24,976 nt of DNA, from positions 1 through 24,976 of IMG/VR virus record IMGVR_UViG_3300046820_000572; one strand, written 5' to 3'. This document shows, piece by piece, positions 1-14,900 of this stretch. How positions within the stretch are numbered: the first letter of the stretch is position 1; each line of letters starts with the position of its first letter. The notes under the pieces were generated by a model. That model saw only the letters and a list, made by a program, of their open reading frames with translations. It had not been told where the DNA came from and ran no database searches. Position numbers and translations under genes: made by a program. This stretch comes from a virus.

Positions 1-205
1 GATTAATAAACATTCCAGTTACTTTATCTTCCAGTGCGTAGTCGTATTGCAGTTCGATTGCATCGTGAACCACATTGCACTGCTCCAACTCTAATTGGTA
101 TACATCAACGTCTTGTAACTTGTTGAATGCATCCTTGACATTCTCTGCGTCAATCTCGATGATTGTCTCGTACACCCTTGTCATTTTAAATGTGTAAGTC
201 TCCAT
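1..205 (-). CDS. Small protein resembling DpnD/PcfM-like domains (partial)
   Basis: This minus-strand reading frame starts with ATG at 205-203 and stays open for 68 codons to the window edge, so its C-terminus is missing. The protein starts METYTFKMTRVYETIIEID and continues with an acidic helix (AENVKDAFNKLQ). That beta-strand, beta-strand, helix layout with a 'xxAENxxxAxxKL' turn is typical of the small DpnD/PcfM-like proteins found in phages and plasmids, whose function is unknown. The start lies 1 nt after the TAA of the upstream gene (207-440), so the two are probably translated together. The family match is by eye and weak; the coding call is stronger because of the tight spacing and the uninterrupted frame. 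Confidence 0.6.
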   Translation of the reverse strand, partial: METYTFKMTRVYETIIEIDAENVKDAFNKLQDVDVYQLELEQCNVVHDAIELQYDYALEDKVTGMFIN

Positions 206-206
206 A

Positions 207-440
207 TTATGTGTTTGCCTTGTTTACCTCTGACGTGCCGATTACTTTAACTCTGTCTTGGTTGCTGTCCATCCACCTTAGCCAATTGTCTAAGTGCCTG
301 TCGTCCTTGAACTCCTTTACTTGCGTGAAGTAAGTCCCGTACTTTCCTTTCATTTCTACCTTCACTATCATTGCTCCATTAGTTTGAGACCCAACATATA
401 CCCCAGTGCAAAGATTGGGGATAGTGCTATAATTGTCCAA
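207..440 (-). CDS. Hypothetical protein, 77 aa, probable TTG start
   Basis: I do not recognise this protein. It contains PNLCTGVYVG and a strand-rich middle (IVKVEMKGKYGTYFTQVKEF), followed by an amphipathic stretch (RHLDNWLRWMD), which suggests a small alpha/beta fold. No ATG lies in frame upstream. The best start is TTG at 440-438, 10 nt after the TAA of the preceding gene (451-627). A later ATG (MIVKVEMKG, about residue 24) is the alternative and would drop the first strand. The stop is 1 nt before the ATG at 205, consistent with an operon. Confidence 0.6.
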   Translation of the reverse strand: MDNYSTIPNLCTGVYVGSQTNGAMIVKVEMKGKYGTYFTQVKEFKDDRHLDNWLRWMDSNQDRVKVIGTSEVNKANT

Positions 441-450
441 ATGAATTCTA

Positions 451-627
451 TTACTTTTCGCATAGTGTTGAAATTTGAATGTATCTGTTAAAATCTTTTC
501 TACTTTTTAATTTACCTAATGCAACCTCAGTTGCCTCGTCTTCAGTTGTGGCGACCACTCTCATTCGAGCGGTACGCCATGTCAACTTGTTACTCTGCCA
601 GTCAATTACTACCGAATACCCTCTCAT
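451..627 (-). CDS. Hypothetical protein, 58 aa
   Basis: The start at 627 is chosen because its ATG overlaps the TGA of the upstream gene as ATGA (627-624). A longer form starting at 636 would lie inside that gene. The protein begins MRGYSVVIDWQSNKLTWRTA and continues with two predicted strands, then a helix (TTEDEATEVALGKLKSRK). This beta-beta-alpha layout is like that of the gene at 1-205, so the two may be distant relatives, but I cannot name the family. It has no signal peptide or membrane segment. The ATGA junction indicates translational coupling to 624-851. Confidence 0.62.
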   Translation of the reverse strand: MRGYSVVIDWQSNKLTWRTARMRVVATTEDEATEVALGKLKSRKDFNRYIQISTLCEK

Positions 628-851
628 AAGAACCATTGGTCATAGATGTATGAGTAAGGCATCTCAGCCAACTCTGCTAACTTTTCAAACAATCTTTCCC
701 GTACTACGGAGTCGTAAACTCCGATGTAATCGTACACATCTCTTCGTCTATCCAGCGTCTCGAATAGCCCGTCAAATGTTGCCGTGTCATCTATCTCAAT
801 TCCAAGTTCATCACTTGGAAAATTCGTGGTGTACCAGTCTCTAAGTCTCAT
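624..851 (-). CDS. Hypothetical acidic protein, 75 aa
   Basis: I do not recognise this protein. It begins MRLRDWYTTNFPSDELGIEI, has an acidic central part, and has a tail rich in aromatic residues (PYSYIYDQWFL). A run of charged residues (RRRDVYDYIGVYDSVVRERL, then FEKLAELAEM) should form helices. Both ends are coupled to neighbours: its ATG overlaps the stop of 848-1165 (ATGA, 851-848) and its stop overlaps the start of 451-627 (ATGA). This chain of four-base overlaps is the main evidence that it is translated. Confidence 0.65.
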   Translation of the reverse strand: MRLRDWYTTNFPSDELGIEIDDTATFDGLFETLDRRRDVYDYIGVYDSVVRERLFEKLAELAEMPYSYIYDQWFL

Positions 852-1165
852 AAGAATAGAAAGTATTTAATGTCAAAATCGTACTTGTCACCCTCATATA
901 GTGGGTTGTACACCAACTCGCCAACCTCCGTGTCGTGGTTGTAAATTGCAATGCAGTCTTGCGTCATGATTTCGCATAACGCCTCCACATGGTTAGCGGT
1001 GATTACCTCCAACTCCCCAACGAAAGTTGGTTCGTCCGCTCCTAAGTAGTCACCTAACTTCTCAGCGTAGTCGTTAAGTCCGAATAGTTTAAATTGGTTA
1101 AGCAACTTTGCTACCTGCTCTAAGTTTAGTGGGTTGTTATTCAACCCGATGTTGATTGTGTACAT
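848..1165 (-). CDS. Hypothetical protein, 105 aa
   Basis: The function is unknown. The N-terminal part (NPLNLEQVAKLLNQFKLFGL) looks helical. The middle (TFVGELEVITANHVEALCEI) and the end (VGELVYNPLYEGDKYDFDIK) look strand-rich and acidic. The ATG at 1165 lies 1 nt after the TAA of the 29-residue membrane peptide gene upstream, and its stop overlaps the next start as ATGA. No RNA element separates it from its neighbours, unlike the junctions further up the operon. Confidence 0.66.
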   Translation of the reverse strand: MYTINIGLNNNPLNLEQVAKLLNQFKLFGLNDYAEKLGDYLGADEPTFVGELEVITANHVEALCEIMTQDCIAIYNHDTEVGELVYNPLYEGDKYDFDIKYFLFL

Positions 1166-1166
1166 G

Positions 1167-1256
1167 TTATTTCTTTTCAGTGATTAATGAATAAATAAAA
1201 CCAAAGGCAAAGATAAATGCAGTGCCAAGTGCGATAATTAATAAGTCTTGTATCAT
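1167..1256 (-). CDS. Single-span membrane microprotein, 29 aa
   Basis: This is a short frame with ATG at 1256-1254 and TAA at 1169-1167. The product starts MIQDLLIIALGTAFIFAFGF and ends IYSLITEKK, so nearly the whole peptide is one hydrophobic helix with a positively charged C-terminus, as expected for an inner-membrane peptide. The start is preceded by the operon's recurring leader (CTAAACTAAAAAACAAATG) and the stop lies 1 nt before the next ATG (1165). The leader, tight spacing and hydrophobicity together support translation. Its role is unknown; such peptides can modulate host membrane proteins or act in exclusion, but nothing here shows which. Confidence 0.55.
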   Translation of the reverse strand: MIQDLLIIALGTAFIFAFGFIYSLITEKK

Positions 1257-1272
1257 TTGTTTTTTAGTTTAG

Positions 1273-1539
1273 TTAAAATTCGTTTAATAAGAAATTATTT
1301 AATTCAGTAATCCTTCTAAATCCCAAGAACTCACTTTCATCTTTAATCTGATAAAAAGCATCACTACCCACATTTGAGCAAATAAAAATGCCATTTTCAA
1401 GTTCAATATAAGACAAGCCATTACTTGGATTGTATCCAACTTCTTTAATTTCCTCTTCCGAAAAGTTATGAGCGTAAGATGCCCAAACAATTGACTTTCC
1501 AATTGCCTCTGTATAAGAAACCGATTTTTGATTGTCCAT
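1273..1539 (-). CDS. Hypothetical protein, 88 aa
   Basis: I do not recognise this protein. It starts MDNQKSVSYTEAIGKSIVWA and continues with a helix, then strands around NGLSYIELENGIFICSN, and ends in a helix (RITELNNFLLNEF). It looks like a compact soluble alpha/beta protein. The ATG follows the TAA of the upstream gene (1545-1823) by 5 nt, with the sequence TATAAAAATCATG, which keeps the A-rich ATCATG ending of the operon's leaders. An alternative overlapping frame (1299-1502) has no comparable leader and is discarded. Confidence 0.65.
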   Translation of the reverse strand: MDNQKSVSYTEAIGKSIVWASYAHNFSEEEIKEVGYNPSNGLSYIELENGIFICSNVGSDAFYQIKDESEFLGFRRITELNNFLLNEF

Positions 1540-1544
1540 GATTT

Positions 1545-1823
1545 TTATAGGTTATATTCGTTTAATACTTCTTTGAATCCATAGTACACTTGTTTTCTGT
1601 ATGCATCGGTGATATGACCAATCACGCTAGACATCATCAGAGATGTGGTCGTCACATAGTTAATTTCCACCAAGTTAAGCAACTGCTTGTAGGTGTACCC
1701 GTTTACAATACTATCTAGCAACTCCGCCTTACTTGTCACGTGTTGCTCCAAAAATTTGCCTGTGATTTTTGCCTCGATGTGGGCATCGGCAATTGCCTTT
1801 ACTTTTTTGCTGATTCGTTTCAT
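1545..1823 (-). CDS. Hypothetical basic helical protein, 92 aa
   Basis: The N-terminus is basic (MKRISKKVKAIADAHIEAK) and the rest is mostly helical, with TYKQLLNLVEINYVTTTSLMM and a tail ITDAYRKQVYYGFKEVLNEY. No conserved motif is recognised. The ATG overlaps the TGA of the upstream gene as ATGA (1823-1820), which fixes the start. A basic, helical and small protein could bind nucleic acid or a host protein; this is inference only. Confidence 0.65.
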   Translation of the reverse strand: MKRISKKVKAIADAHIEAKITGKFLEQHVTSKAELLDSIVNGYTYKQLLNLVEINYVTTTSLMMSSVIGHITDAYRKQVYYGFKEVLNEYNL

Positions 1824-2017
1824 GCGTCTAACTCTTTAACTTTGTCTAAGAAATTTAAAATTGATTCGTATGTACCAATGTTTCTACCATTTTCTAAATC
1901 CCATACTTCCCAGTCTTCATATAGTAGTATCAACTCCCCAAATAGTATATCGTATTCGGTTTTAGGATTAAATATAATCTCGTGTAGTTTGGTAAAAAGA
2001 AAGAAATTGTAGTCCAT
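1820..2017 (-). CDS. Hypothetical protein, 65 aa
   Basis: The frame could begin at 2050, but the ATG at 2017-2015 is preferred. It is preceded by the operon's shared leader (ACCTAAACAATTTAATCATG), and starting there leaves the structured RNA element at 2048-2088 outside the gene. The product starts MDYNFFLFTKLHEIIFNPKT and contains EDWEVWDLENGRNIGTYESI, rich in aromatic and acidic residues. The function is unknown. It is the first gene downstream of RNA element A. Confidence 0.62.
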   Translation of the reverse strand: MDYNFFLFTKLHEIIFNPKTEYDILFGELILLYEDWEVWDLENGRNIGTYESILNFLDKVKELDA

Positions 2018-2047
2018 GATTAAATTGTTTAGGTTATAAATAAATAG

Positions 2048-2088
2048 CACCTACTCGCAATCAAATGCCACGCTCAAGGCGGTAGGTG
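2048..2088 (-). ncRNA. RNA element A: three-stem intergenic motif, family unknown
   Basis: Read on the minus strand, this has a 7-bp outer stem (CACCUAC with GUAGGUG), then at once a 3-bp inner hairpin (CGC, loop CUUGA, GCG), then the 16-nt stretch UGGCAUUUGAUUGCGA, which may form a third small stem (GCA with UGC). Element B (3913-3951) has the same order and spacing with different paired bases and an almost identical 16-nt stretch. It lies between the stop of 2095-2295 and the leader of 1820-2017, the position that hammerhead ribozymes occupy at other junctions of this operon. I do not recognise it as a known riboswitch or ribozyme. The structure is well supported; the function is inferred. 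Confidence 0.6.
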
Positions 2089-2094
2089 TGTAAG

Positions 2095-2295
2095 TTAATC
2101 CTCTTCTTCATCGTACCAATCAGTCCAATAGATTGAGCCATCATCGTACGCTTCTTGTATATCCTTGTAATCATTTTCGATACACCATTGCAGTGCATCT
2201 TCCTCGTTTGCGAAGTACATTCCGCATCCTTCAGCGTACCATCCTTCATTCATCCCTTCTCCCGTTATGGAGCATTTTCTTGCAAACTTTTCCAT
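2095..2295 (-). CDS. Small acidic conserved phage protein, 66 aa
   Basis: The product begins MEKFARKCSITGEGMNEGWY and continues with a helix (ANEEDALQWCIENDYK) and an acidic aromatic tail (IYWTDWYDEEED). The CxxTGxGMNEG pattern followed by a helical 'YKDIQEAYDDG' segment is familiar from small proteins of many phages, whose function is not established. The two N-terminal cysteines (one in KCSITG, one in AEGCGM) could help bind a metal, but the set is too small for a firm zinc-finger call. The ATG is 1 nt after the TAA of the gene at 2297-2524. RNA element A follows directly after its stop. Confidence 0.68.
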   Translation of the reverse strand: MEKFARKCSITGEGMNEGWYAEGCGMYFANEEDALQWCIENDYKDIQEAYDDGSIYWTDWYDEEED

Positions 2296-2296
2296 G

Positions 2297-2524
2297 TTAC
2301 GCTAGTCTAGGTAAGAAAAATTCATCTTCAATTTTCAACCCATTGTAGTCGTGTATAATTGTGCCAGCAACTAGGTCGGGGCAATTTTTATCTAGTGATA
2401 CCAACTTATCGAAGTCGATTTTCATGTCTAAAGTCTGAGCAATATGAATGCAAGCCAAAAAAGAATGGTCTTTTTTCAGATGCTTTTCAACGATTGCTAA
2501 TGTTTTTAATATGTTACTTTCCAT
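2297..2524 (-). CDS. Hypothetical protein, 75 aa
   Basis: I do not recognise this protein. It has a helical N-terminal half (ILKTLAIVEKHLKKDHSFLA then CIHIAQTLDMKIDFDKLVSL) and a strand-rich C-terminal half (DLVAGTIIHDYNGLKIEDEF). Its start lies 2 nt after the TAA of the upstream gene, in the context AATAATCATGG, and its stop lies 1 nt before the next ATG. This junction carries no RNA element. Confidence 0.62.
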   Translation of the reverse strand: MESNILKTLAIVEKHLKKDHSFLACIHIAQTLDMKIDFDKLVSLDKNCPDLVAGTIIHDYNGLKIEDEFFLPRLA

Positions 2525-2526
2525 GA

Positions 2527-2799
2527 TTATTTTAGTGAAGATTTTTCGTTTATTATATTTTTTATATCATTAAATGTTTTAAATGTAAAATATCCTTTAC
2601 TTGGTATAAATACTCGTGAAGTTGAATACTCTATTTTAATTTCTTGTAAATCGTAATTGTATTTATCTTCAATATTATACTTTACACTAAAACTACTTAC
2701 ATTATCTCCATATCTATTTGGAAATTCTGAAAATTCCTTTACTTCCCCTACTCCATTTTTTGTTTTAAGAAATTCAAAAACATCATCGTGTATTTTCAT
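2527..2799 (-). CDS. Hypothetical protein, 90 aa
   Basis: The function is unknown. The protein starts MKIHDDVFEFLKTKNGVGEV and is rich in strands and aromatic residues (SSFSVKYNIEDKYNYDLQEI, then KGYFTFKTFNDIKNIIN), suggesting a small beta-sheet protein with a terminal helix. The gene is very AT-rich. It is the cistron just downstream of hammerhead ribozyme 1. Cleavage there would give its message a 20-nt 5' leader reading UUAACCUAAACAAUUUAAUC before AUG. Confidence 0.64.
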   Translation of the reverse strand: MKIHDDVFEFLKTKNGVGEVKEFSEFPNRYGDNVSSFSVKYNIEDKYNYDLQEIKIEYSTSRVFIPSKGYFTFKTFNDIKNIINEKSSLK

Positions 2800-2812
2800 G
2801 ATTAAATTGTTT

Positions 2813-2866
2813 AGGTTAAGACCAGCCGTAGGCTGGTTTCGTCCTTATGGACTCATCAGTTAACCT
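2813..2866 (-). ncRNA. Type I hammerhead ribozyme 1
   Basis: On the minus strand all core parts are present in order: stem I 5' strand AGGUUAA; core CUGAUGA (2859-2853); stem II GUCC, loop AUAA, GGAC; core GAAA (2840-2837); stem III CCAGCC, loop UAC, GGCUGG; then UC, with the scissile C at 2820; and stem I 3' strand UUAACCU. The last A of GAAA pairs with the U before the scissile C, as in canonical hammerheads. The ends are open at stem I, making it type I. It begins 1 nt after the TAA of 2868-3074 and releases the message for 2527-2799. No obvious stem I internal loop is seen, so tertiary loop contacts may be minimal. Confidence 0.93.
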
Positions 2867-2867
2867 G

Positions 2868-3074
2868 TTATTTGAAATATTCAACATGTATTACTCCACC
2901 ATGGAAGTGTGCCATGACCTTATCATCCGACATTAAAATCTTTAAAAATCCAGAGGATGAATCTGTTATTTCTACATGATTTTTGCATTTAGAAATTCTA
3001 AAACTAGGCTGACTTCCGCCATAGTTTTTTGCTAGGAAAATTACTCGGGATAAAGTGAATTCTAAAGTTTCCAT
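2868..3074 (-). CDS. Hypothetical protein, 68 aa
   Basis: I do not recognise this protein. It begins METLEFTLSRVIFLAKNYGG and is rich in predicted strands (FRISKCKNHVEITDSS, FLKILMSDDKVMAHFHGG, VIHVEYFK). Two histidines flank a GG turn (HFHGGVIH). It lies between two hammerhead ribozymes: cleavage by ribozyme 2 upstream gives a 26-nt leader ending ACACACACAUC before AUG, and ribozyme 1 would cut just after its stop codon. If both act, this gene becomes a separate one-gene message. Confidence 0.64.
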   Translation of the reverse strand: METLEFTLSRVIFLAKNYGGSQPSFRISKCKNHVEITDSSSGFLKILMSDDKVMAHFHGGVIHVEYFK

Positions 3075-3094
3075 GATGTGTGTGTTTAGGTTTT

Positions 3095-3144
3095 GGTTAA
3101 GACGCCCGTAGGCGTTTCGGATATTAAATCCTCATCAGTTAACC
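3095..3144 (-). ncRNA. Type I hammerhead ribozyme 2
   Basis: Minus-strand order: stem I GGUUAA; core CUGAUGA (3138-3132); stem II GGAU, loop UUAAU, AUCC; core GAAA (3118-3115); stem III CGCC, loop UACG, GGCG; UC, with the scissile C at 3101; and stem I UUAACC. Compared with ribozyme 1, stems II and III differ in sequence but still pair, which supports selection on structure. The first G of stem I is the last base of the TAG stop of 3144-3464, so the ribozyme is fused to the end of that gene. Confidence 0.93.
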
Positions 3145-3464
3145 TATGCAAGCCAATCTCCAATATTCCCGTCATCACTCCAGCCATTTGCATCAGCAAA
3201 CTGCTTCCATTCATTCCAAAATTTTGCTTCTTTTTTGTTATATCCGTAGCCGTTCCCGTTTAATAATTCGAGTAATTCACACCCTTCATTATATGGCTTT
3301 GAATAGCACATATATTCCCATGAATATCCAGCGTAAAGTAGGTTTCTACAAGTATTTACCCTCCTTGCCGCATTTAATAAAGTTTTTATAAATTCAGGAT
3401 TTTTTACTCCCGATTTTTCAATCATCACTTCGTACTCATTTTTGATGTCTAGCCAATTTGCCAT
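3144..3464 (-). CDS. Hypothetical protein, 106 aa
   Basis: The function is unknown. The protein begins MANWLDIKNEYEVMIEKSGV, is mostly helical, and is unusually rich in Trp, Tyr and Asn (YAGYSWEYMCYSKPYNEG, GNGYGYNKKEAKFWNEWKQF). A second helical region ends in an acidic, Trp-containing tail (NGWSDDGNIGDWLA). The ATG is preceded by the shared leader (CTAAACAAAAAAAATCATG), just after the stop of the small membrane protein gene 3482-3586. Hammerhead ribozyme 2 begins within its stop codon. Confidence 0.66.
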   Translation of the reverse strand: MANWLDIKNEYEVMIEKSGVKNPEFIKTLLNAARRVNTCRNLLYAGYSWEYMCYSKPYNEGCELLELLNGNGYGYNKKEAKFWNEWKQFADANGWSDDGNIGDWLA

Positions 3465-3481
3465 GATTTTTTTTGTTTAGA

Positions 3482-3586
3482 TTACCAAATAGTTTTTTCT
3501 AATTCAATTCCGAAGAAAGAACCGATTGTGATTGCAATTGCTAAGATTACAATTGTGATTACCCATGATTTTGTGTTATCGCTCAT
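3482..3586 (-). CDS. Single-span membrane microprotein, 34 aa
   Basis: ATG is at 3586-3584 and TAA at 3484-3482. The product starts MSDNTKSWVITIVILAIAIT and ends IGSFFGIELEKTIW: a short polar N-terminus, one hydrophobic helix of about 18 residues, then a mixed-charge tail. It is preceded by the shared leader (ATAAACTAAAAAATCATG), and hammerhead ribozyme 3 would cut 21 nt upstream of its AUG. Having its own processed leader supports it as a real gene. It is the second membrane microprotein in the operon after 1167-1256; they share no clear sequence. Confidence 0.6.
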   Translation of the reverse strand: MSDNTKSWVITIVILAIAITIGSFFGIELEKTIW

Positions 3587-3601
3587 GATTTTTTAGTTTA
3601 T

Positions 3602-3653
3602 GGTTAAGACTGCCTTTCGGCAGTTTCGGTCAATTAGACCTCTTCAGTTAACC
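3602..3653 (-). ncRNA. Type I hammerhead ribozyme 3 (CUGAAGA core)
   Basis: Minus-strand order: stem I GGUUAA; core CUGAAGA (3647-3641); stem II GGUC, loop UAAUU, GACC; core GAAA (3627-3624); stem III CUGCC, loop GAAA, GGCAG; UC, with the scissile C at 3608; and stem I UUAACC. The only core change is U to A at position 7, the one position of CUGANGA known to tolerate any base, so activity is expected. Stems II and III again differ from the other copies but pair fully. Stem I GGUUAA includes the last glycine codon and TAA of 3648-3884, so the gene ends inside the ribozyme. Confidence 0.92.
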
Positions 3654-3884
3654 TTTTGCAATTATTTTGGAAACTAACGTTTCTAGTTGGTCAATTACAT
3701 CGTTTGGGATATTCGAGCCATTTTTTGCAGTCCATTGCAATGGAGCGGATAACCCATTTAAAATTGCTATCCTCTGCCCTTTGTAAAACACATCTGTAAA
3801 TCCCTCGTACATAGTAGGGACTTTCTTGAATTGGAATGTGTTATTGTCACTCAAATTTTCAGTGTTGATAAGTAGATTTCTCAT
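3648..3884 (-). CDS. Hypothetical protein, 78 aa; first gene of the minus-strand operon
   Basis: I do not recognise this protein. It begins MRNLLINTENLSDNNTFQFK and has a strand-rich middle (YEGFTDVFYKGQRIAILNGL) and a C-terminal helix (VIDQLETLVSKIIAKG). No gene is evident upstream on this strand, so it probably opens the operon. Its ATG is preceded by the shared leader CTAACCTAAACAAATAATAC, and by RNA element B further upstream. Its last codon and stop form part of stem I of hammerhead ribozyme 3. Confidence 0.64.
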   Translation of the reverse strand: MRNLLINTENLSDNNTFQFKKVPTMYEGFTDVFYKGQRIAILNGLSAPLQWTAKNGSNIPNDVIDQLETLVSKIIAKG

Positions 3885-3912
3885 GGTATTATTTGTTTAG
3901 GTTAGTTATAGT

Positions 3913-3951
3913 CCCCTATCGCAATCGAATGCCACACCCATAGTGTAGGGG
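3913..3951 (-). ncRNA. RNA element B: three-stem intergenic motif, family unknown
   Basis: Minus strand: outer stem CCCCUA with UAGGGG; inner hairpin CAC, loop UAUGG, GUG; then UGGCAUUCGAUUGCGA directly before the closing strand. Against element A (2048-2088), both stems are re-paired with different bases, while the 16-nt stretch differs only at one pyrimidine. Order and spacing are the same, apart from one fewer outer pair. It sits 28 nt upstream of the first gene of the operon (3648-3884), followed by the ACCUAAAC leader. It could be a self-cleaving RNA, an RNase or protein-binding element, or a small regulatory aptamer; the sequence alone does not decide. Confidence 0.6.
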
Positions 3952-4524
3952 ATGTATACATTGGACATCTAGGTATAACGCTTAATTGGATGCTACCCTA
4001 CGATTCATCATTCGATGTCTAATGCTATGTTTTAATCCGTCCCTGTTACCCTAGCCGTCAGGTTACTCTACAGGTCATGTTATACACTTGTATTGTGTCA
4101 CACCCAGTGGGCGTATTTCAGCATGTCAAAGAACTTCAAGGCCGTGTGCCGTTGTTGATGATTCAAAGATGGGGGGACGGGCTTCAGAATTCCAAATTTC
4201 ATGCAAATATTTTTTTCAACTTTCTTGTAACTGCTTGATAATCAGGGAGAAAATTTTCAATCTAGGTCGGTTGGATATCCATGGTCTAAGTTGGCCTACC
4301 TTGGCCATTTGACACGAAATGCATGAAAAATGTCCGATATCGATCACTTTTGTCCGAAAATGAACACTATGGAGGAAATGCCCTAAGTTTTCTTTGTAAT
4401 GCATTGTAAATCAGTGAGTTATATTTTGTTTCTTGGAAATTTGTTGATTTTTTGAATCTTAAATATGATTGGAGGGATAAAGCAATCTCTGAGTATGTCT
4501 TGCATAAAATCCCATAAAGGAATT

Positions 4525-4538
4525 GCGTACGCGTACGC
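4525..4538. repeat. 14-bp perfect palindrome GCGTACGCGTACGC
   Basis: The sequence reads the same on both strands and is made of alternating GCGTAC units in otherwise unremarkable non-coding DNA. It lies just upstream of the TTGAC dyads. It could be a protein-binding site; no partner is identified. Confidence 0.5.
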
Positions 4539-4550
4539 GTGAGGGGAAAC

Positions 4551-4642
4551 TTGACTTCCGTTCAAAAAGTCTTTTTCGATAAATTGACCAGCGTTCAATT
4601 GCGTCATAATTGCGTCAGTTGAGTAAGTTGACCAGCGGTCAA
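4551..4642. promoter_or_regulatory. Three phased 15-bp dyads (TTGAC-N5-GTCAA type)
   Basis: TTGACTTCCGTTCAA (4551-4565), TTGACCAGCGTTCAA (4584-4598) and TTGACCAGCGGTCAA (4628-4642) are variants of one inverted repeat, the last having perfect arms (TTGACC-AGC-GGTCAA). Start-to-start distances are 33 and 44 bp, that is three and four helical turns, so all three face the same side of the DNA. Two AATTGCGTCA direct repeats, 11 bp apart (4597-4606, 4608-4617), lie between them. This is the layout of cooperative binding sites for a dimeric protein such as a repressor or replication initiator. Confidence 0.6.
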
Positions 4643-4747
4643 TAACTGCTTATCTGCATATTTGCATAAGCGGTTATGCTCGTACGGACATTGCGTAAAT
4701 GCTTATTTGCTTAGGCAACTTTGTCACTAATTGTCGCAAAGATGTGA

Positions 4748-4816
4748 CACAACTGCCGACACAAACGACACAAAGCCAGCACAAAATCGACACAAATGGC
4801 ACAAATATCGACACAA
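4748..4816. repeat. Helically phased CACAA array (iteron-like)
   Basis: CACAA occurs at 4748, 4760, 4769, 4780, 4791, 4800 and 4812, usually within CGACACAA or GGCACAAA. Intervals are 12, 9, 11, 11, 9 and 12 bp, averaging close to one helical turn, and the interval pattern is itself symmetrical. A GTGTCA at 4819-4824 gives an inverted copy of the GACAC part. The period is not a multiple of three, so it is not a coding repeat. Iteron-type replication origins and cooperative operator arrays look like this. Confidence 0.6.
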
Positions 4817-4837
4817 CTCGTGTCAAAATAGGCCTTT

Positions 4838-4896
4838 ATGCAACCATGTTGCATGGGAAAAAGCCAAAAAGTTAGGGTAAATGCAACCATGTTGCA
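4838..4896. promoter_or_regulatory. Two identical palindromic operator-like sites
   Basis: ATGCAACCATGTTGCA occurs at 4838-4853 and again at 4881-4896. Within it TGCAAC and GTTGCA are perfect inverted arms around CAT. The copies are 43 bp apart, about four helical turns. Two identical 16-mers this close in non-coding DNA strongly suggest binding sites for a dimeric regulator; the winged-helix gene at 6953-7540 is one candidate, by proximity only. Confidence 0.6.
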
Positions 4897-5161
4897 GCCC
4901 CCCATGCCAATTTTGGATCGTTTTCCACCTGCGGCCGCCACGCAATTTTTGGGGGTATAACCCAAAATGTACATATATCTCGCAAAAAGTGTAAATGAAA
5001 ACCATCAAAATGTCGAAAAAGTGTTAGTTAAGTCACTGATACTTAGCGAGATGCTCAAAATGCGCATTTTATCTTTAAAAAAATAAAAAAAAAATATCTA
5101 TTTATATACATCGTACATATATATATATATACGGACGTTTTTTCTGACATTTCTGTCATGC

Positions 5162-5191
5162 TTGTTAATTGGCATAGGGTTTGTATATTTG
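5162..5191 (+). promoter_or_regulatory. Bacteroidota-type promoter for groEL
   Basis: TTG at 5162-5164 is separated by 19 nt from TATATTTG at 5184-5191, matching the Bacteroidota sigma-factor consensus (TTG about 19 nt before TAnnTTTG). The groEL ATG follows at 5214, giving a short A-rich leader. It is the only copy of the TATATTTG box in the window with the -33 element at exactly this spacing, so it may be read by the unmodified host polymerase. Confidence 0.75.
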
Positions 5192-5213
5192 TCGTGAACT
5201 AAAAATCTAATTT

Positions 5214-6770
5214 ATGGAAGTTTACTTTGACCAAGAAGGTCGTGACAAACTACTACGTGGTGTCAAGATCATGTCGAGTGCAGTGAAGAGCACTCTTGGA
5301 CCGAGTGGTAAGACGGTGATCATTGACTCTCCGAGCCACACACGTGGTCTAACAATTACAAAGGACGGTGTTACAGTTGCAAAGAGTATCCACTTGAACG
5401 ATCCAGTGGAGAACATGGCTGTTCGAATCGTTCGAGAGGCCAGTGAGAGGACTGCGATGACGGCAGGCGATGGGACAACCACTGCGGTGGTGATAACCGA
5501 GGCCTTAGTTGAGGGAGGGATGGCGTTGAACGCTGACTGGGGTACAGTCAAGAAGATCAATGAGCTGTCAGACAGGACTGAGGGCTTGCTTGCCAAGATG
5601 GCAGTTCGGACAACTAAGCGTTGGATCGAGGACATTGCCACAATTTCTGCCAACAACGACAGACACATTGGGAAGCTAATCGCTGACACGTACAAGAAGA
5701 TCGGGAAGAACGGTGTGGTGACGGTTGAGAAGTCGATGACCACGGAGACCTACGCTGAGGTGATCAAGGGTATCCGCATGGATCGTGGGTATACAAACAA
5801 ATTGTTCGTGAACAACCAGAAGAATGACGAGTACGTGGCCGAGGACTGCTACATCTTGATGACAGACATTGAGCTATCGAGCATCACTCAGATCCAGAAC
5901 GCACTTGCGCCAGTGATTGACAGTCGGAAGCCATTGTTGATCGTTGCGCCATGCTCTGCGAACTTCACAAATACGATCGCAGCGAACGTGTTGAAGAACA
6001 ACTTGAAGTACTGCATCGTGGAGCCGCCTCAGTTTGGCTACAAGCAGCACGAGCTGATGCAAGATTTGGCTGTTGCGACAGGCGGACGGTTCTTCAGCCA
6101 GATGTCAGGCGATGACACAGCACTAATTGGCTTCGATGATCTTGGCTTCGCGTCTAAGGTAGTAGTATCGAGAGACAAGACTGTCCTGGTTCCGTCTCCA
6201 AACGTAGACAATACGGAGACACTTGAAGCTTTAGTGAGTGAGTTGAAGCAGGCGCACGACCAGGCGAACAAAAAGCAGGACAAAGACTTCATCAAGGAGC
6301 GTATTTCGTACTTGACTGGTGGTGTTGGTATCATCCACGTGGGTGGCAACTCAGACGTTGAGCAGAAGGAGCTGTACGATCGTGTCGATGACTCAGTCTG
6401 CGCGGTGCAGTCAGCCATGGAAGAGGGAATTGTTGCTGGTGGTGGCTTGGCCTTGTACCGAATCGGTGAGCAGCTGCTCAAGGAAAGCTACAACGACAGG
6501 GTTGTTGATTGCTTTGTGAACGCAATCCAGGCTCCATTCTATCAGATTATTAAAAATGCAGACCTAGATAGCGATTTTATTCTTGGAATGCTTCGAGATA
6601 CGTCAGGTAACGAGGGTATCAATGTTAAGACCAACGAGTTTGCTGACATGTTTGAGATGGGGATCGTTGATCCACTTAAGGTTACAAAGACCGCTCTGAA
6701 AAACGCCATCTCCGTGGCGACTACAATTTTAACTACAAACGCAATAATCGCAAATGAGACCAATAGGTAA
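5214..6770 (+). CDS. groEL: Phage-encoded GroEL chaperonin
   Basis: ATP-dependent group I chaperonin subunit; rings of it would fold phage or host proteins in the cytoplasm. At 518 residues it is slightly short of the usual 540-550. Visible landmarks: TLGPSGKTV (about 27-35), TKDG with D51, the nucleotide loop GDGTTT (85-90), an apical domain with GY and LF at the substrate and GroES contact region (192-198) and KPLLIVAP (239-246), the hydrolysis aspartate equivalent D393 in VDDSV, EEGIVAGGG (403-411) and MGIVDPLKV (482-490). The ATPase residues are therefore intact. The glycine-methionine tail of bacterial GroEL is absent; the protein ends NAIIANETNR. groES overlaps its end by 17 bp. Local G+C is about 50%, well above the AT-rich early genes. 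Confidence 0.96.
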   Translation: MEVYFDQEGRDKLLRGVKIMSSAVKSTLGPSGKTVIIDSPSHTRGLTITKDGVTVAKSIHLNDPVENMAVRIVREASERTAMTAGDGTTTAVVITEALVEGGMALNADWGTVKKINELSDRTEGLLAKMAVRTTKRWIEDIATISANNDRHIGKLIADTYKKIGKNGVVTVEKSMTTETYAEVIKGIRMDRGYTNKLFVNNQKNDEYVAEDCYILMTDIELSSITQIQNALAPVIDSRKPLLIVAPCSANFTNTIAANVLKNNLKYCIVEPPQFGYKQHELMQDLAVATGGRFFSQMSGDDTALIGFDDLGFASKVVVSRDKTVLVPSPNVDNTETLEALVSELKQAHDQANKKQDKDFIKERISYLTGGVGIIHVGGNSDVEQKELYDRVDDSVCAVQSAMEEGIVAGGGLALYRIGEQLLKESYNDRVVDCFVNAIQAPFYQIIKNADLDSDFILGMLRDTSGNEGINVKTNEFADMFEMGIVDPLKVTKTALKNAISVATTILTTNAIIANETNR

Positions 6771-7035
6771 GTATCTGGTAATCAGAAAAATAGAAAAAGA
6801 AGCCCGAACACAAGTCGGGCTTCTCCTGTCAGCTGATGACAAAAATAAAATGCGCTATGGTATAGGTGAGATTGTCAAGGTTGGTGACGATGTTAAGTCG
6901 GTCAACGATGGCGAGTTTATCTACTATGATAAGTTTGCTTCTCATGAGATGATTATTGCTGGAGAGGTTTTGACTGTAATACTTGAGCGAGACGTTGTCG
7001 TTGTTCTTGAATCTCCTGACGTCTTTGGCGTTTAG
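6754..7035 (+). CDS. groES: GroES co-chaperonin
   Basis: This is a 93-residue protein of the usual length, starting MRPIGKYLVIRKIEKEART. It has the mobile-loop segment with a GLLL tripeptide region (residues 22-25, in the place of GIVL) that docks on GroEL, the strand YGIGEIVKVGDD, an acidic turn, and the closing strands AGEVLTVILERDVVVVLE. It should cap the GroEL encoded just upstream. The ATG overlaps the groEL end by 17 bp, so the pair is probably translationally coupled; the gene order groEL-groES is the reverse of most bacterial operons. Two oddities: its last 83 bp overlap a convergent regulator gene, and a 10-bp perfect inverted repeat lies in the codons of the mobile loop. Confidence 0.93.
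   Translation: MRPIGKYLVIRKIEKEARTQVGLLLSADDKNKMRYGIGEIVKVGDDVKSVNDGEFIYYDKFASHEMIIAGEVLTVILERDVVVVLESPDVFGV
6784..6824 (-). terminator. Intrinsic terminator for the regulator gene, inside groES
   Basis: On the minus strand AGAAGCCCGA (6824-6815) pairs perfectly over 10 bp with TCGGGCTTCT (6807-6798) across a 7-nt loop, followed at once by a T-rich tract, TTTTTCTATTTTTC. That is a textbook intrinsic terminator for leftward transcription. It lies 129 nt downstream of the stop of the regulator gene 6953-7540. On the plus strand the same bases encode groES residues 15-24, the mobile loop. Confidence 0.78.
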
Positions 7036-8987: not shown

Positions 8988-11900
8988 ATGAGATTTTCGG
9001 ACTTTCTATTAGTAAGCGATCCTGGCGATCTAGACTTCATTGTGGGTTATACTGAAGAACAGAACATTAGAATTAGTGTATCTGATATTTTTGGTGGCTA
9101 TATAAAAGGATCTGGTAACGCAGGTTATGTTCCTGTTTTCACATCAAATGATTCAATAGGTAACTCACAGATTTTCCAAGACGGTTCAAACATCGTGATT
9201 GGAGGCGTGAATGCCATGGGTTATCGTCTTGCTGTAGGGGGAACTATTTATGCCGTAAATGGAGCTGTAATAGAAACCACTAGCTTGGGTGCTGACGCAC
9301 TTAGAGTTATTTCAGAAGGGGAAAACATTTTTGTTATTCCAAATGACTTGGGCCAGTCTATTACAAGCTCAAGAAGAATTATTCATCCTCCAGCTGTTCT
9401 TACAACTGAGTCTGCAACACTTGGTCAGCTTAATGCTGCTATATCTAACTTAGATAACCAAATTGATATCTTGCTTGATCTTAAGGTTGACAAGACATCT
9501 GTTGGAGTTGCTAACGGGGTTGCTTCTCTAGATGCAGGCGGTAAGGTTCCATTGTCTCAGATTCCTGATTCTATTATTGGTCAGGTTCAGTACATGGGTA
9601 CTTGGAACGCATTTACAAATACTCCAACATTAAATCCACTAGTTCCAGAAGAAAAGGGACACTACTATGTAGTTTCTGTCGCTGGAGTTTTTGGTGGTGT
9701 AGATTATGCAGTAGGTGACTGGATTATATCTAATGGAGTTATTTGGGAGAAGGTAGATAACACTGACGCTGTAACTAGCGTATTTGGTAGAATCGGGGCT
9801 ATACTTGCTATTGAGGCTGACTATCAATCTTTTTATCCTAGACTTTCTCAGGCTTACGATAATCCAACATGGATTAACAGCCTTGCATTTACAAAAATTA
9901 CTGGCGTTCCTCCATTCCTTTTGGAGAACCAAACTATAACGCTCTCTGGAGACGTTACGGGCAGCGGTAAGACGTCTATTTCTACAACAATATCAAACAA
10001 CGCTGTGAGCAATGAAAAGCTCAGAGACAGCGTAGGAACGTCTGTAATAGGACGATCTGTATTTAGTACTGGTGATCCTGCTGACATACAAGCAAACTCT
10101 GATGGTCATGTTCTATTAAGATCAGCTGGTAACCTTTTGTTTGGCCTTATTTCAAGCGATTCAATTTCTTCTATAAACTGGTCAAAGATTACAGGAACAC
10201 CAACTACTTTGAGTGGTTATGGTATTACTGACGCTTATACGAAGACTGAGGCAGACAATAAGTTTGTTCCATACACTGGAGCAAGTGCTAACGTGAACCT
10301 TGGTTCAAATAACATTAATGCAAACTCTTTTATTAAGGCTGGAGGTACATCTTCTCAGTTTTTGAAGGCTGATGGATCTGTTGACGCTAGTCAATATGTA
10401 CCAACAACTAGATCAATTAATGCTGGTACTGGACTTACTGGTGGAGGCAACTTGTCTTCAGATGTAAACATCTCATTTGATACCACTTGGGGAGACATTA
10501 GGTATGCGTATAGAACTAGACAACTTACTATTAATGGAACAACTTACGACCTATCAGCAGATAGAACATGGAACGTAGGTACAGTTACTAGTGTAGGTCT
10601 TAGTATGCCATCTGCATTTACTGTTTCTAATAGTCCTGTAAATGGATCTGGAACACTTACTGTTGTTGGTGCTGGTACTACTGCTGATTATATACGTGGT
10701 GATGGATCTTTGGCTACATTCCCTTCTTTGGCAGGTTATGTTCCTTATACAGGGGCTACTCAAGATGTAAACCTTGGAACTTATGGATTAACTTCTGATT
10801 TTGTAAGATTTAATACAACTAACACTAGCATACCTTCAGCAGAGGGTGTAATGTGGTGGGATAGTGTAGATGGAACAGTAAGGCTTTCAGTTCAAGGTAA
10901 CATCTATAGTGTGCCAATTGGGCAAAGCATTATTTCTAAGGTAAGAAATAATACAAATGTTAATCTACTTAGAACTAATTATCAAGTAGTAAAAATTTCT
11001 GGAGCTCAAGGTCAAAGACTTGCTGTTACTTTAGCTCAAGCTAATAATGATTTAAACAGCGTATCAACTTTAGGATTGGTATGTGAGAACATATTTAAAA
11101 ATCAAGAAGGTTTTGTTATAAATATTGGTCAAATCACAAATATAAACACTACTGGAAGTCTTCAGGGTGAAACTTGGAATGACGGTGATGTAATTTATTT
11201 GAGTCCAACAATAGCTGGAGCAGTAACTAATGTTAAACCAATTGCCCCACAGCATACTGTTATCCTTGGATATGTTGAGTATGCTCATGCAAACAATGGT
11301 AAGATTTATGTAAAGATTGACAATGGTTATGAGCTTGAGGAACTTCACGATGTTTCTGCTGAACCATTTGTAAACAATGGATTGCTTTACAGAGACACTA
11401 CTTTAAATCTTTGGAAAAGTGCAACTATTAGCACTATCCTTGGATATACTCCTGCTCCTCAAGGAAATTATATTACTGCGTTAACAGGTGAAGTTACTGC
11501 TTCTGGCCCTGGTTCTGTAACTGCTACGCTATCAAACTCTGCCGTAACAGGAAAGGTGTTGACAGGATTAAATATAGCAGGTAACGCAATTCTTAGCACA
11601 GACTCAATATTAACTGCTTTTGGTAAACTTCAGCATCAAGTAAACCAATTAGTTGGTGGACTTCAGTATGAAGGAACTTGGAACGCATCAACAAATACTC
11701 CTACCATTACTTCAAGTGTTGGTACGGATGGTACTTTCTACATTGTAAACGTAGCAGGTACAACAAATATCAACGGAATTAATGATTGGGAAGTAGGAGA
11801 CTGGATTGTATTTCATGATACTGCTTGGCAGAAGGTTGATAATAGTGACTCAGTAAGTAGTGTGTTTGGAAGGGTTGGTAACATTGTTGCTAATCAATCT

Positions 11901-14900
11901 GACTACTCAGCATTCTATCCATTGATAGCAGACATTAAAAATGGAGTTCTTACTGTTCAGGGAACAGGAGTTCTTTCAGGATCTGGCACGTTTAGTGCAA
12001 ATCAGGCTACAAACAACACGATTTCTCTTGTACACAATTCTGTAACTAGAACAGATACAACATCTACTCAGACTCCATCTTTTGGTGGATCATTCACTGC
12101 TATAGATGGTGTTACATCATCTGCTGAGGGTCATGTTACTGCTATTAATCTTAAGACTGTAACTATTCCTTCTACTGTTGCTACTGCTACACAAACAGGA
12201 TTGTTAAGCAATGCTGATTGGATTACATTTAATGGCAAGCAAAATGTTATAACGCTTACAACAACTGGGACAAGTGGAGCGGCTACATTAGTAGGATCTA
12301 CGTTAAACATACCTAACTACACTCCTGATTTAAGTGGATACATAACTTTAGCTACCGATCAGACTATTACAGGTCTAAAGACTATTGTTAGAGGTGGTGA
12401 TGTGTTGAACTTTAAGATTGGAACGGACACTCTTTATGGTTTGAAAGTTGCTTACAATCAAAATGAGCTTGTTCCTAGCGGAGAGGCTACATGGAGTTTT
12501 GTAAATACATTTAACAGAAATGGTAGCGGTTTTGAAACAACTCCTATCTCATTCTTTAGAGGTGTACTTGTTACAGGAGAAAGACTTTTAAGTGCTTCTA
12601 TTAATTCAAATCTTTTAGACTACTACTCAAACAACCCATCTGGTAGATATCCTGTGTACGCTTACAATACAGGCGTACAGCAGTTCTCTACTGGCATTAT
12701 TGTTGGAAAGACCACTGGAGTTGTTAACGCTGCAACAGGAGCTATTTCTGACTTGCCTTCTGGTGTTGTTGCTAACTTTAATGGGCGAGTTATTGGATCT
12801 AATGCTGTAAACTCAAACGAATTTGTTGCGCTTGGTCAGCTTGGTAGTTATGTTCCAACATCTAGAACTCTTACGATTAATGGAGTTACATTTGACTTAT
12901 CTGCTAATAGATCATGGACTATTACAGCTGGTGTTTCATCTGTAACTGCGTCTAGTCCATTGTTCTCAAGTGGAGGTGCTACTCCTAATATTACCATTCA
13001 ACAAGCAACTGCGTCACAGAATGGATTCCTATCTAACTCAGATTGGACAACATTCAATAGCAAAGCAAATGCTAATGGTAGCAATGCAAGTGGTACATGG
13101 GGGATTAGTATTACTGGTAACGCTGAGACTGTAGATGGATTTAGTGCTTCTACTTCAACATTGGGTAATCATATTGTTGTTAGAGATGCGTCAGGATATA
13201 TTTTTGGTAACTATATCAATATGTCTGACGATGGTAATCCTGGAGCAGGAACATCCATTACATCATTTATTACCAAGCAAGGAGATAATTATTATAGATC
13301 TGTTTCTCCTACAAATGCAATGTCTTCTATTAGAAGTGTTGCATCTGGATCTTGGGGTATTAATATTACTGGAAGTGCAGGATCTGCATCAACAGCGTCA
13401 TTAGTAAATGGTACTTCTGGTGGAGCTATTCAGTCTTGGGATATAAGAACCATTTCTCCAAGTTCAATGACTGCTGCTCGTTTGGGATTTGGATTTACAT
13501 CTTGGTCTAATAACAACACTGGTCCATATGCTGACTATTTACATCTTAGGTCATATTCTGATGGATCAGGAGGAGCTGACAATCTAGTTATGTTCTTAAA
13601 GAGTGGTATAGGAATGAGAATATACCAGCAGGCATTTGGATCAGCTTCTGTTTATTCATCTTTTGCTGATGTTTTACTATCTACAAATTTTAGTTCTTAT
13701 GCTCTTCCATTAACAGGAGGAACTTTAAGTGGCCCGTTAACTATTAATGGAAATGACAATCAGTTAGTTATTAATGGTAGTACTGGAGCATTAGTCGCTG
13801 GAATGTTTTTTAGAGAGGCAGGAACTAATAAATGGGAATTATATCATTATAATGGTTCTTTTAGATTTTACAATTATAGTTCTGGAAGTGAAGAATTGTC
13901 TATTTCTAATTCAGGCGGTTTTGTAACAGCAAGAACATCTTTTAGAGCTCCTATATTTTATGATTCAGATAATACAGCTTATTATGTTAACCCTAATAGT
14001 GACACAAATTTATACGGTACGCTTCAAGTAAGTGGAGGGCATGGAAATTCTCAAATAGGTGTTAGACTTTTAGCATCAGAAAATGGTGGAGGAGGTGGTC
14101 AAATAAACTTAAGAATGTGGTGTTCTGAACCTGGTGTAACATGGAACTGGGGTGGATTTGGATATAACGTGACAAATGATGGTGGGTCTCCTGGTGGATT
14201 CGGTAGATTAAATACAAGTCATGGACAGGCTTATATGAGATTCTCAGATACTGGAGATTGGTATTTTTACAATACTAACACTTCTGGAACTAGAACTCAA
14301 TCTCTTCAATTTACTTCAGCTGGGGCTGCTATTTTTGGTAGCGCGATTACAACTACAAATGTTAATGCTCCATCTGGATATACAAGTTTTGGTAACCCTT
14401 GGGGTACAGCAAACTCAGCGTTTTTCCCTAACGGTATTACTACAGCTGGATCAACTAACTGGATTTATGGAAGTAATACATATATAGGCAACGCGCCTTC
14501 TAATGGAGCTGGGCATGAGTTCTTTGCTAGTGGTAGTTCAAATTCTACTGGGGATGTTAGTGCGTTTTCATCAATGCGTGCTCCTATATTTTATGATAGA
14601 AATAATACTGCATATTACGGAGACTTTGCAACTACCTCTAGAATGAATTCCATTCTTTTAGATTCACCTTCTACAACAGGTGGTGTTACAGCTTTAACTT
14701 TTGCTCCTATTTCAACTGAGTACGCAGATGCTGGATATGTGAATAGGTGGTATCCAATGACATATCAAAGAGCTAGATATGGTGATGGATATGTAACTCA
14801 CTTAAATACAGGATTATATAAAACCACAAGCGGTTGGGGGGCAGGTCAGAATGGATGGTATGCTGCTATAGGTGGTAGTGATGCTTCTCCAACAGAAGAG

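Follow-up and report, generated by a model that had tools for sequence, protein, structure and literature searches.

Three hammerhead ribozymes (HHRs) lie between successive small genes on the minus strand of a 24,976-base virus record (the window, by which we mean the whole stretch analysed), and the locus raises the question of what self-cleaving RNAs would do at the gene junctions of a phage operon. Since 2011 it has been asked what the hammerheads of bacteria and phages are for. In Perreault et al. 2011 (PMC3088659), clustered phage HHRs are described, a role in transcript processing is already proposed, and self-cleavage of the HHR clusters is reported in vitro and, for one, in E. coli. 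The HHRs of the window likewise stand on either side of single phage genes or short blocks of them, as a cluster of this type.

The operon and its phage

The window terminase matches those of phages of Flavobacterium, Cellulophaga, Tenacibaculum and Maribacter, with 71% identity to that of an uncultured podovirus and 45% to those of the elemo phages. The other recognised genes are GroEL, GroES and an endolysin; a megablast search of the window against phage records gave no match. Elemo phage vB_FspP_elemoC_14-1A (Elemovirus, MT497067) is a cultured relative, with a 45% identical terminase and a GroEL/GroES pair. In its opposite-strand operon a small gene is preceded by a type I HHR, and the genome also has a type III candidate. 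It differs from the window in that its stem I starts GGCAAA and in having a single type I copy where the window has three. By terminase the nearest named record is MW202828, in which model searches gave no HHR match and no match to element E (described below).

The phage-encoded GroEL and GroES pair occupies 5214-7035 of the window, and 8988-15890 holds a repeat-containing ORF of 2300 aa that probably encodes a tail fibre. About 1.2 kb between divergent operons (4000-5210) is without convincing genes, contains repeated GCAACATGGTTGCAT and GTGTCG motifs, and is possibly a control or replication region.

The features of the HHR operon are listed below; no confident family was found for the genes around the HHRs, and other genes of the operon are without any element.

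3912..3952, minus strand: element E1, leader of the first ORF; 7-bp P1, P2, core UGGCAUUCGAUUGCGA, P1'
3648..3884, minus strand: ORF of 78 aa, the operon segment's first gene, after element E1 and before HHR1; without confident family
3602..3653, minus strand: HHR1, type I hammerhead ribozyme (structure, pattern, relatives' model)
3482..3586, minus strand: ORF of 34 aa, small hydrophobic protein (MSDNTKSWVITIVIL...), 21 nt past the predicted HHR1 cut
3144..3464, minus strand: ORF of 106 aa, between HHR1's gene and HHR2, without family
3095..3144, minus strand: HHR2, type I hammerhead ribozyme (structure, pattern, relatives' model)
2868..3074, minus strand: ORF of 68 aa, flanked by HHR2 and HHR3
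2813..2866, minus strand: HHR3, type I hammerhead ribozyme (as HHR1 and HHR2, plus sub-threshold Rfam matches)
2527..2799, minus strand: ORF of 90 aa, 20 nt past the predicted HHR3 cut, without family
2048..2088, minus strand: element E2; P1 and P2 differ from those of E1; core UGGCAUUUGAUUGCGA

Structure of the three hammerheads

Each HHR consists of CUGANGA, a 4-bp stem II, GAAA, stem III, UC, and UUAACC paired to GGUUAA, and the variable core position N7 is A, U and U in HHR1, HHR2 and HHR3, respectively. HHR1 has GGUUAA/UUAACC as stem I, GGUC/GACC as stem II, and a stem III of 6 bp with a GAAA loop; stem I of HHR3 is 7 bp long with the outer A-U included. The type I core (CUGANGA, GAA, A15.1-U16.1, H17) is present in all three, and three stems surround it with stem I open-ended, as seen in the single-copy folds and in the covariation described below. 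The predicted cuts fall at 3608 (C17)/3607 in HHR1, 3101/3100 in HHR2 and 2820/2819 in HHR3.

Folded alone, each copy takes up the type I hammerhead structure, with minimum free energies of -17.9, -14.3 and -20.2 kcal/mol and z-scores of -3.8, -2.4 and -3.1. The pattern CTGANGA..GAAA..TCTTAAC has three matches in the window and none in 100 dinucleotide shuffles; this result and a reversed-sequence control (below) rule out a chance origin. The initial annotation had described three complete type I HHRs here, each with an intact core, paired stems and a UC cleavage site, and pattern, folds and covariation bear this out. The three elements are real hammerheads and very probably active.

A match to the Rfam hammerhead covariance models had been suggested as a check, its absence counting as refutation. 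On that formal count the claim fails, since the whole window has no match at gathering threshold, and the ribozymes still look sound. A relaxed search (E up to 10, window 1-5200) matched HHR3 as the sole HHR, at 24.9 bits against Hammerhead_1 (RF00163; gathering threshold 34) and 28.7 bits against RAGATH-1-hammerhead (RF03152; gathering threshold 56.3), with alignments spanning the full length of both models; HHR1 and HHR2 were not listed by that search. The window HHRs share the core and the type I topology of RF00163 and RF03152, and at gathering threshold none belongs formally to either. Likewise, 12 loci of relatives yielded no HHR at Rfam gathering threshold, though several carry descriptor-defined HHRs. 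It seems to be the Rfam models that fall short here, their thresholds having overlooked HHRs in the window as well as in the scanned loci of relatives. We set Rfam aside as arbiter of HHR identity, and, because it gave no gathering match, models were made from relatives instead. Model R1, built from 70 relatives' rows that include the three window copies, scores these three training members at 74, 74 and 59 bits.

Relatives of the hammerheads

IMG/VR viral contigs were scanned twice, with the 3' arm of stem I held constant in the pattern (scan 1) and with stem I free (scan 2), each scan giving at least 120 loci; together they contain at least about 340 HHRs of this kind. A three-stem descriptor applied to scan 1 recovers at least 185 HHRs in 113 loci, 169 of them unique, as against one match in the reversed sequence. 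Across 70 aligned copies, 97.7% of cells are paired and 13 of the 16 pairs show changes on both sides, with a covariation score that none of 500 shuffles reached. Where HHR2 and HHR3 of the window differ from their counterparts in contig L004, the differences sit in loops, at N7 of the core, which is free, or in pairs that stay intact.

Stem I is GGUUAA in 147 of the scan 1 HHRs among the matches listed, which also include the compensated variants GAUUAA/UUAAUC, GGUCUA/UAGAUC and GGUGAA/UUCACC. The 6-bp stem is flanked by A in 97% of the scan 1 matches listed on one side and in 96% on the other, although the pattern does not require this. Of the 171 scan 2 copies among the matches listed, 159 have a 6-bp stem I, whose sequence varies widely but remains paired, and A stands on both sides in about 95%. 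Since its sequence is free while its length and its A flanks are constant, a 6-bp stem I between As is a broad family trait, and GGUUAA marks a subfamily. The idea that the UUAACC leader is a functionally invariant general rule was rejected on the same ground: scan 2 turns up other phages that share the layout but differ widely in the sequence of stem I, and UUAACC is a subfamily trait.

Loop II reads U-N-A-N-U in the 114 copies with a 13-nt stem-loop II, each fixed position being conserved in at least 90% of them (among the matches listed), and stem I has no internal loop in these HHRs. This suggests that a contact between the A-A flank and the conserved loop II may replace the usual one between stem I and loop II, a role that we assume by analogy with known hammerheads.

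Two or more HHRs are present at 42 of 113 scan 1 loci and 39 of 104 scan 2 loci, and all HHRs lie on one strand in 41 of these 42 and 39 of these 39 multi-copy loci, respectively, among the matches listed. Contig L045 has at least six type I hammerheads within about 5 kb, all on its minus strand, and the cultured pelagiphage HTVC019P (Pelagibacter phage, L129) has one at 2945-3011, upstream of MarR-like and integrase genes.

Position between genes and proposed function

The predicted new 5' ends in the window, 3607, 3100 and 2819, lie 21, 26 and 20 nt ahead of the AUGs of small ORFs, in agreement with the ends and the 20-26 nt spacing given in the initial annotation. Its statement that each HHR starts at or within a stop codon holds for two of the three: HHR1 contains the UAA of the upstream ORF within stem I and HHR2 shares one base with an upstream UAG, but HHR3 starts just past the upstream UAA and not within it.

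The same layout recurs in the relatives, where ORFs were called as simple ATG-to-stop readings and where the copies are mutually related, so that the counts do not represent independent events. Among the matches listed, 138 of the 154 HHRs with enough flanking sequence have an upstream ORF stop in range (26% of random positions) and 150 of 154 have a downstream ATG ORF (41% of random positions). The distance from the predicted cut to the AUG has a median of 22 nt (interquartile range 20-24), and the downstream ORFs are small, with a median of 74 aa (both among the matches listed). The GGUUAA copies among these matches number 135, of which 81 overlap the stop codon and 39 start 0-5 nt past it. 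The ribozyme itself offers stop codons, UGA in the CUGA core and UAA in GGUUAA, and the layout is compact because its 5' part often provides the upstream stop.

Anatomy and a comparison of at least about 340 copies support the identity as HHRs, the intercistronic position, the shared strand and the standard leader that precedes the AUG. We consider it probable, at roughly 0.7, that the three HHRs are functional and serve as processing sites between the cistrons of this operon, in a phage of Flavobacteriia that resembles Elemovirus. Structure, covariation, intercistronic geometry, a tandem same-strand layout and recurrence across phages are observed; cleavage in the cell, the chemistry of the ends and a benefit to the phage are what we infer. 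As RNA polymerase passes each junction, the RNA would fold and cut itself after C17, splitting the message. The upstream message would retain stems II and III as structure at its 3' end, which would carry a 2',3'-cyclic phosphate, and the downstream message would gain a uniform 5'-OH and an A-rich leader beginning UUAACC, 20-26 nt from the AUG. This chemistry (5'-OH and 2',3'-cyclic phosphate) is that of hammerheads in general. The outcome would be mRNAs of one or a few genes with defined ends, and small early proteins could be tuned independently; we call the transcript early from the position of its genes. Points against this reading are the stem I without an internal loop, the operon genes that have no element, and the many homologous genes in relatives that lack an HHR, so that one is not essential at a given junction; the descriptor finds no type I HHR at 221 homologous gene starts, some of which have variant cores or a long stem III that it misses.

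A second RNA element in the operon

At other junctions of the HHR operon there is a 41-nt element, E, that the initial annotation does not mention. It has a 7-bp P1, a short P2 hairpin, the core UGGCAUUYGAUUGCGA, P1' and then C, and would form a three-way junction. E2 begins 6 nt past a UAA stop and 30 nt ahead of the next AUG. We found 19 copies in all, including the two in the window; the core was fixed by the search pattern, and relaxing three core positions or using looser patterns gave no new genuine copies. Rfam 15 has no match to E, either at gathering threshold (window) or at E up to 10 (window 1-5200).

P1 and P2 covary, with 61 double-change cells, a number as high as which was seen in none of 500 shuffles. 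P1 resembles a 7-bp acceptor stem, with 97.5% of cells paired and five of seven pairs changed on both sides, and the 3-bp core-arm pairs never vary; two whole-structure measures (pairs changed on both sides, further pair types) were not above shuffles. The minimum-energy folds of single copies are not significantly better than those of shuffles, which leaves covariation as the evidence for the fold. As for the loop, UUYGAU is compatible with a T-loop, and the Y in it changes together with the final base of the P2 loop (nine C/G and three U/A in 12 unique copies, p = 0.005, the rows not being independent and the three U/A copies sharing most of P2), which is what a contact like G19-C56 of tRNA would give. 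Because P1 and P2 covary, a role for E as a DNA promoter only is not favoured.

E starts 5-9 nt past the upstream stop in 13 of the 16 copies for which a stop was found. HHRs occur in 5 of 17 E-bearing stretches as against 1 of 65 background stretches (p = 0.001; 0.005 without a duplicate). E may be a tRNA-like 'punctuation' mark or a ribozyme of a new type.

Interchange of elements at gene junctions

The element ahead of homologous genes differs among relatives: it can be a type I or a type III HHR, a tRNA-like element, a GC hairpin or E. The homologue of the 34-aa ORF, for example, is preceded by E in L096 and by a GC hairpin in L004, with no HHR there. One account of this variety is that a junction can be filled by various elements, which cleave themselves or are cleaved by RNases of the host, the HHR being one option and a tRNA-like element cut by RNase P/Z another; it is wider than the processing reading given above and compatible with it, and we rate it close to an even proposition. 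It fits a small set of swaps, all of them single examples found by inspection: the junction of one pair of homologous genes holds an HHR in L092 and E in L145, with flanking DNA that is about 82% identical on either side, L105 has a type I and L271 a type III HHR ahead of a 92%-identical gene, and L059 has an HHR and L111 a tRNA-like element ahead of another 92%-identical gene. The enrichment of HHRs in E-bearing stretches points the same way, as do type III HHR candidates before AUGs in several of the same contigs. RNase cleavage of the junction elements is predicted only, and genes that follow E are homologues of HHR-following genes in 3 of 18 cases compared with 26 of 285 genes on the same strand, which is not significant (p = 0.24); the proposal that E and HHRs share downstream genes above the rate of other genes was dropped.

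A scan of the same loci for a 7-bp stem with a T-arm gave 44 matches, 14 of which are called as tRNA by ARAGORN, as against two in reversed sequence. Linkers too short for an anticodon arm are found in 25 unique candidates (three in the control, so that a few are likely to be chance matches), a set that came in part from a pattern biased to such T-arms; 20 of the 25 have an ATG within 60 nt. L134 has E plus four T-arm elements.

Several observations at other junctions are recorded here. Elements that resemble tRNAs but lack a normal anticodon arm, mostly uncalled by ARAGORN, stand 14-54 nt ahead of ATGs in contigs that have HHRs or E (L134, L063, L041, L119, L111, L059 and others). Type III hammerhead candidates, counted without a control, are present in L015, L032, L051, L084, L105, L118, L130, L271, L299 and L313, mostly just ahead of ATGs, and several of these contigs also hold type I copies. 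A third intercistronic motif, UAGGAGCRAUACCUA within a long stem, lies close before ATGs in L005, L054, L079, L081, L085 and L229.

A broader generalisation, that Bacteroidota-type phages punctuate early operons with interchangeable modules (type I and III HHRs, armless tRNA-like elements, and E as either an RNase P/Z-cut mini tRNA mimic or a new self-cleaving ribozyme), is offered tentatively, and we think it somewhat improbable as it stands.

Alternative roles for the hammerheads

The HHRs could act mainly on the RNA upstream of the cut: transcription would continue while that message gained a 3' end that is structured and stable, so that the HHR would be a read-through substitute for a terminator and the leader a by-product. 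By type I topology stems II and III do stay on the upstream RNA, and hairpins take the place of HHRs in some relatives: L004 has a GC hairpin with a U-rich tail at the junction that HHR1 occupies in the window, and a GC hairpin in L110 and a terminator-like hairpin in L309 lie ahead of genes whose homologues follow an HHR. These hairpins were chosen by eye, without a background rate, and the tight spacing from cut to AUG noted above is left unexplained. We regard a primary role at 3' ends as plausible, though short of an even chance.

A possible DNA-level role concerns the 68-aa gene. A protein search with its product matched contig L004 and nothing else. The block HHR2-gene-HHR3 is nearly identical in the window and L004, while the neighbouring genes on both sides differ. 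The conserved GGTTAACTGA and TTAACCAAA could allow small genes to be exchanged as HHR-gene-HHR cassettes, with self-cleavage secondary. Homologue pairs of 70-90% identity have a different upstream neighbour in 17 of 21 cases with an HHR in both and in 175 of 332 without (p = 0.009), but the difference from other wide gaps (22 of 37 different) is not significant (p = 0.08) and the effect is absent in other identity bands, leaving one nominal signal that is weak overall. Recombination seams in DNA would, moreover, need no compensatory changes in pairs, and we consider this explanation unlikely.

The ends expected of hammerheads (5'-OH and cyclic phosphate) are substrates of RtcB-type ligases, and the 68-aa gene is flanked by two same-strand HHRs, so that excised HHR-gene-HHR RNAs might be circularised into stable mRNAs. 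This is very improbable, as Perreault et al. sought spliced or circular products of clustered phage HHRs and found none (PMC3088659).

Comparison with known systems

The initial annotation thought a tandem set of phage hammerheads used as operon splitters unusual; this does not stand, given the earlier work of Perreault et al. 2011 (PMC3088659) and the multi-copy loci counted above (42 of 113 and 39 of 104 among those listed). Its central idea is not new, as the same role is proposed in that paper. As in the prophage HHR clusters of PMC3088659, several HHRs lie between phage genes; compared with the accessible part of that report, the window differs in its Elemovirus-group phage, its GGUUAA/UUAACC subfamily, its fixed stop/AUG geometry and its element swaps. 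As far as checked, the GGUUAA/UUAACC subfamily, the quantified stop-ribozyme-AUG layout, E and the element swaps seem to be new. A search of the open-access literature, outside which most subscription journals lie, found no paper on hammerheads in Flavobacterium phages and none that we recognised on tRNA-like punctuation in phages.

In mitochondria, tRNA punctuation and t-elements are cases in which tRNA or tRNA-like RNA between cistrons defines mRNA ends. They are a proposed parallel for E and the armless tRNA-like elements. The Theta (HDV-like) ribozymes of gut phages (PMC10879173) are alike in being phage ribozymes proposed for transcript processing, in phages of Bacteroidota and Bacillota, but they have another fold, and their link is with the processing of tRNAs and not with junctions between protein genes.

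With its fixed stop-ribozyme-AUG layout and its relatives in Flavobacterium phages that are in culture, the subfamily opens the operon-splitting idea to direct tests. If it is true, an RNA enzyme would serve as routine gene punctuation, and if E and the armless tRNA-like elements act through host RNase P/Z, these phages would have reached one solution by several routes, comparable to the tRNA punctuation of mitochondria.
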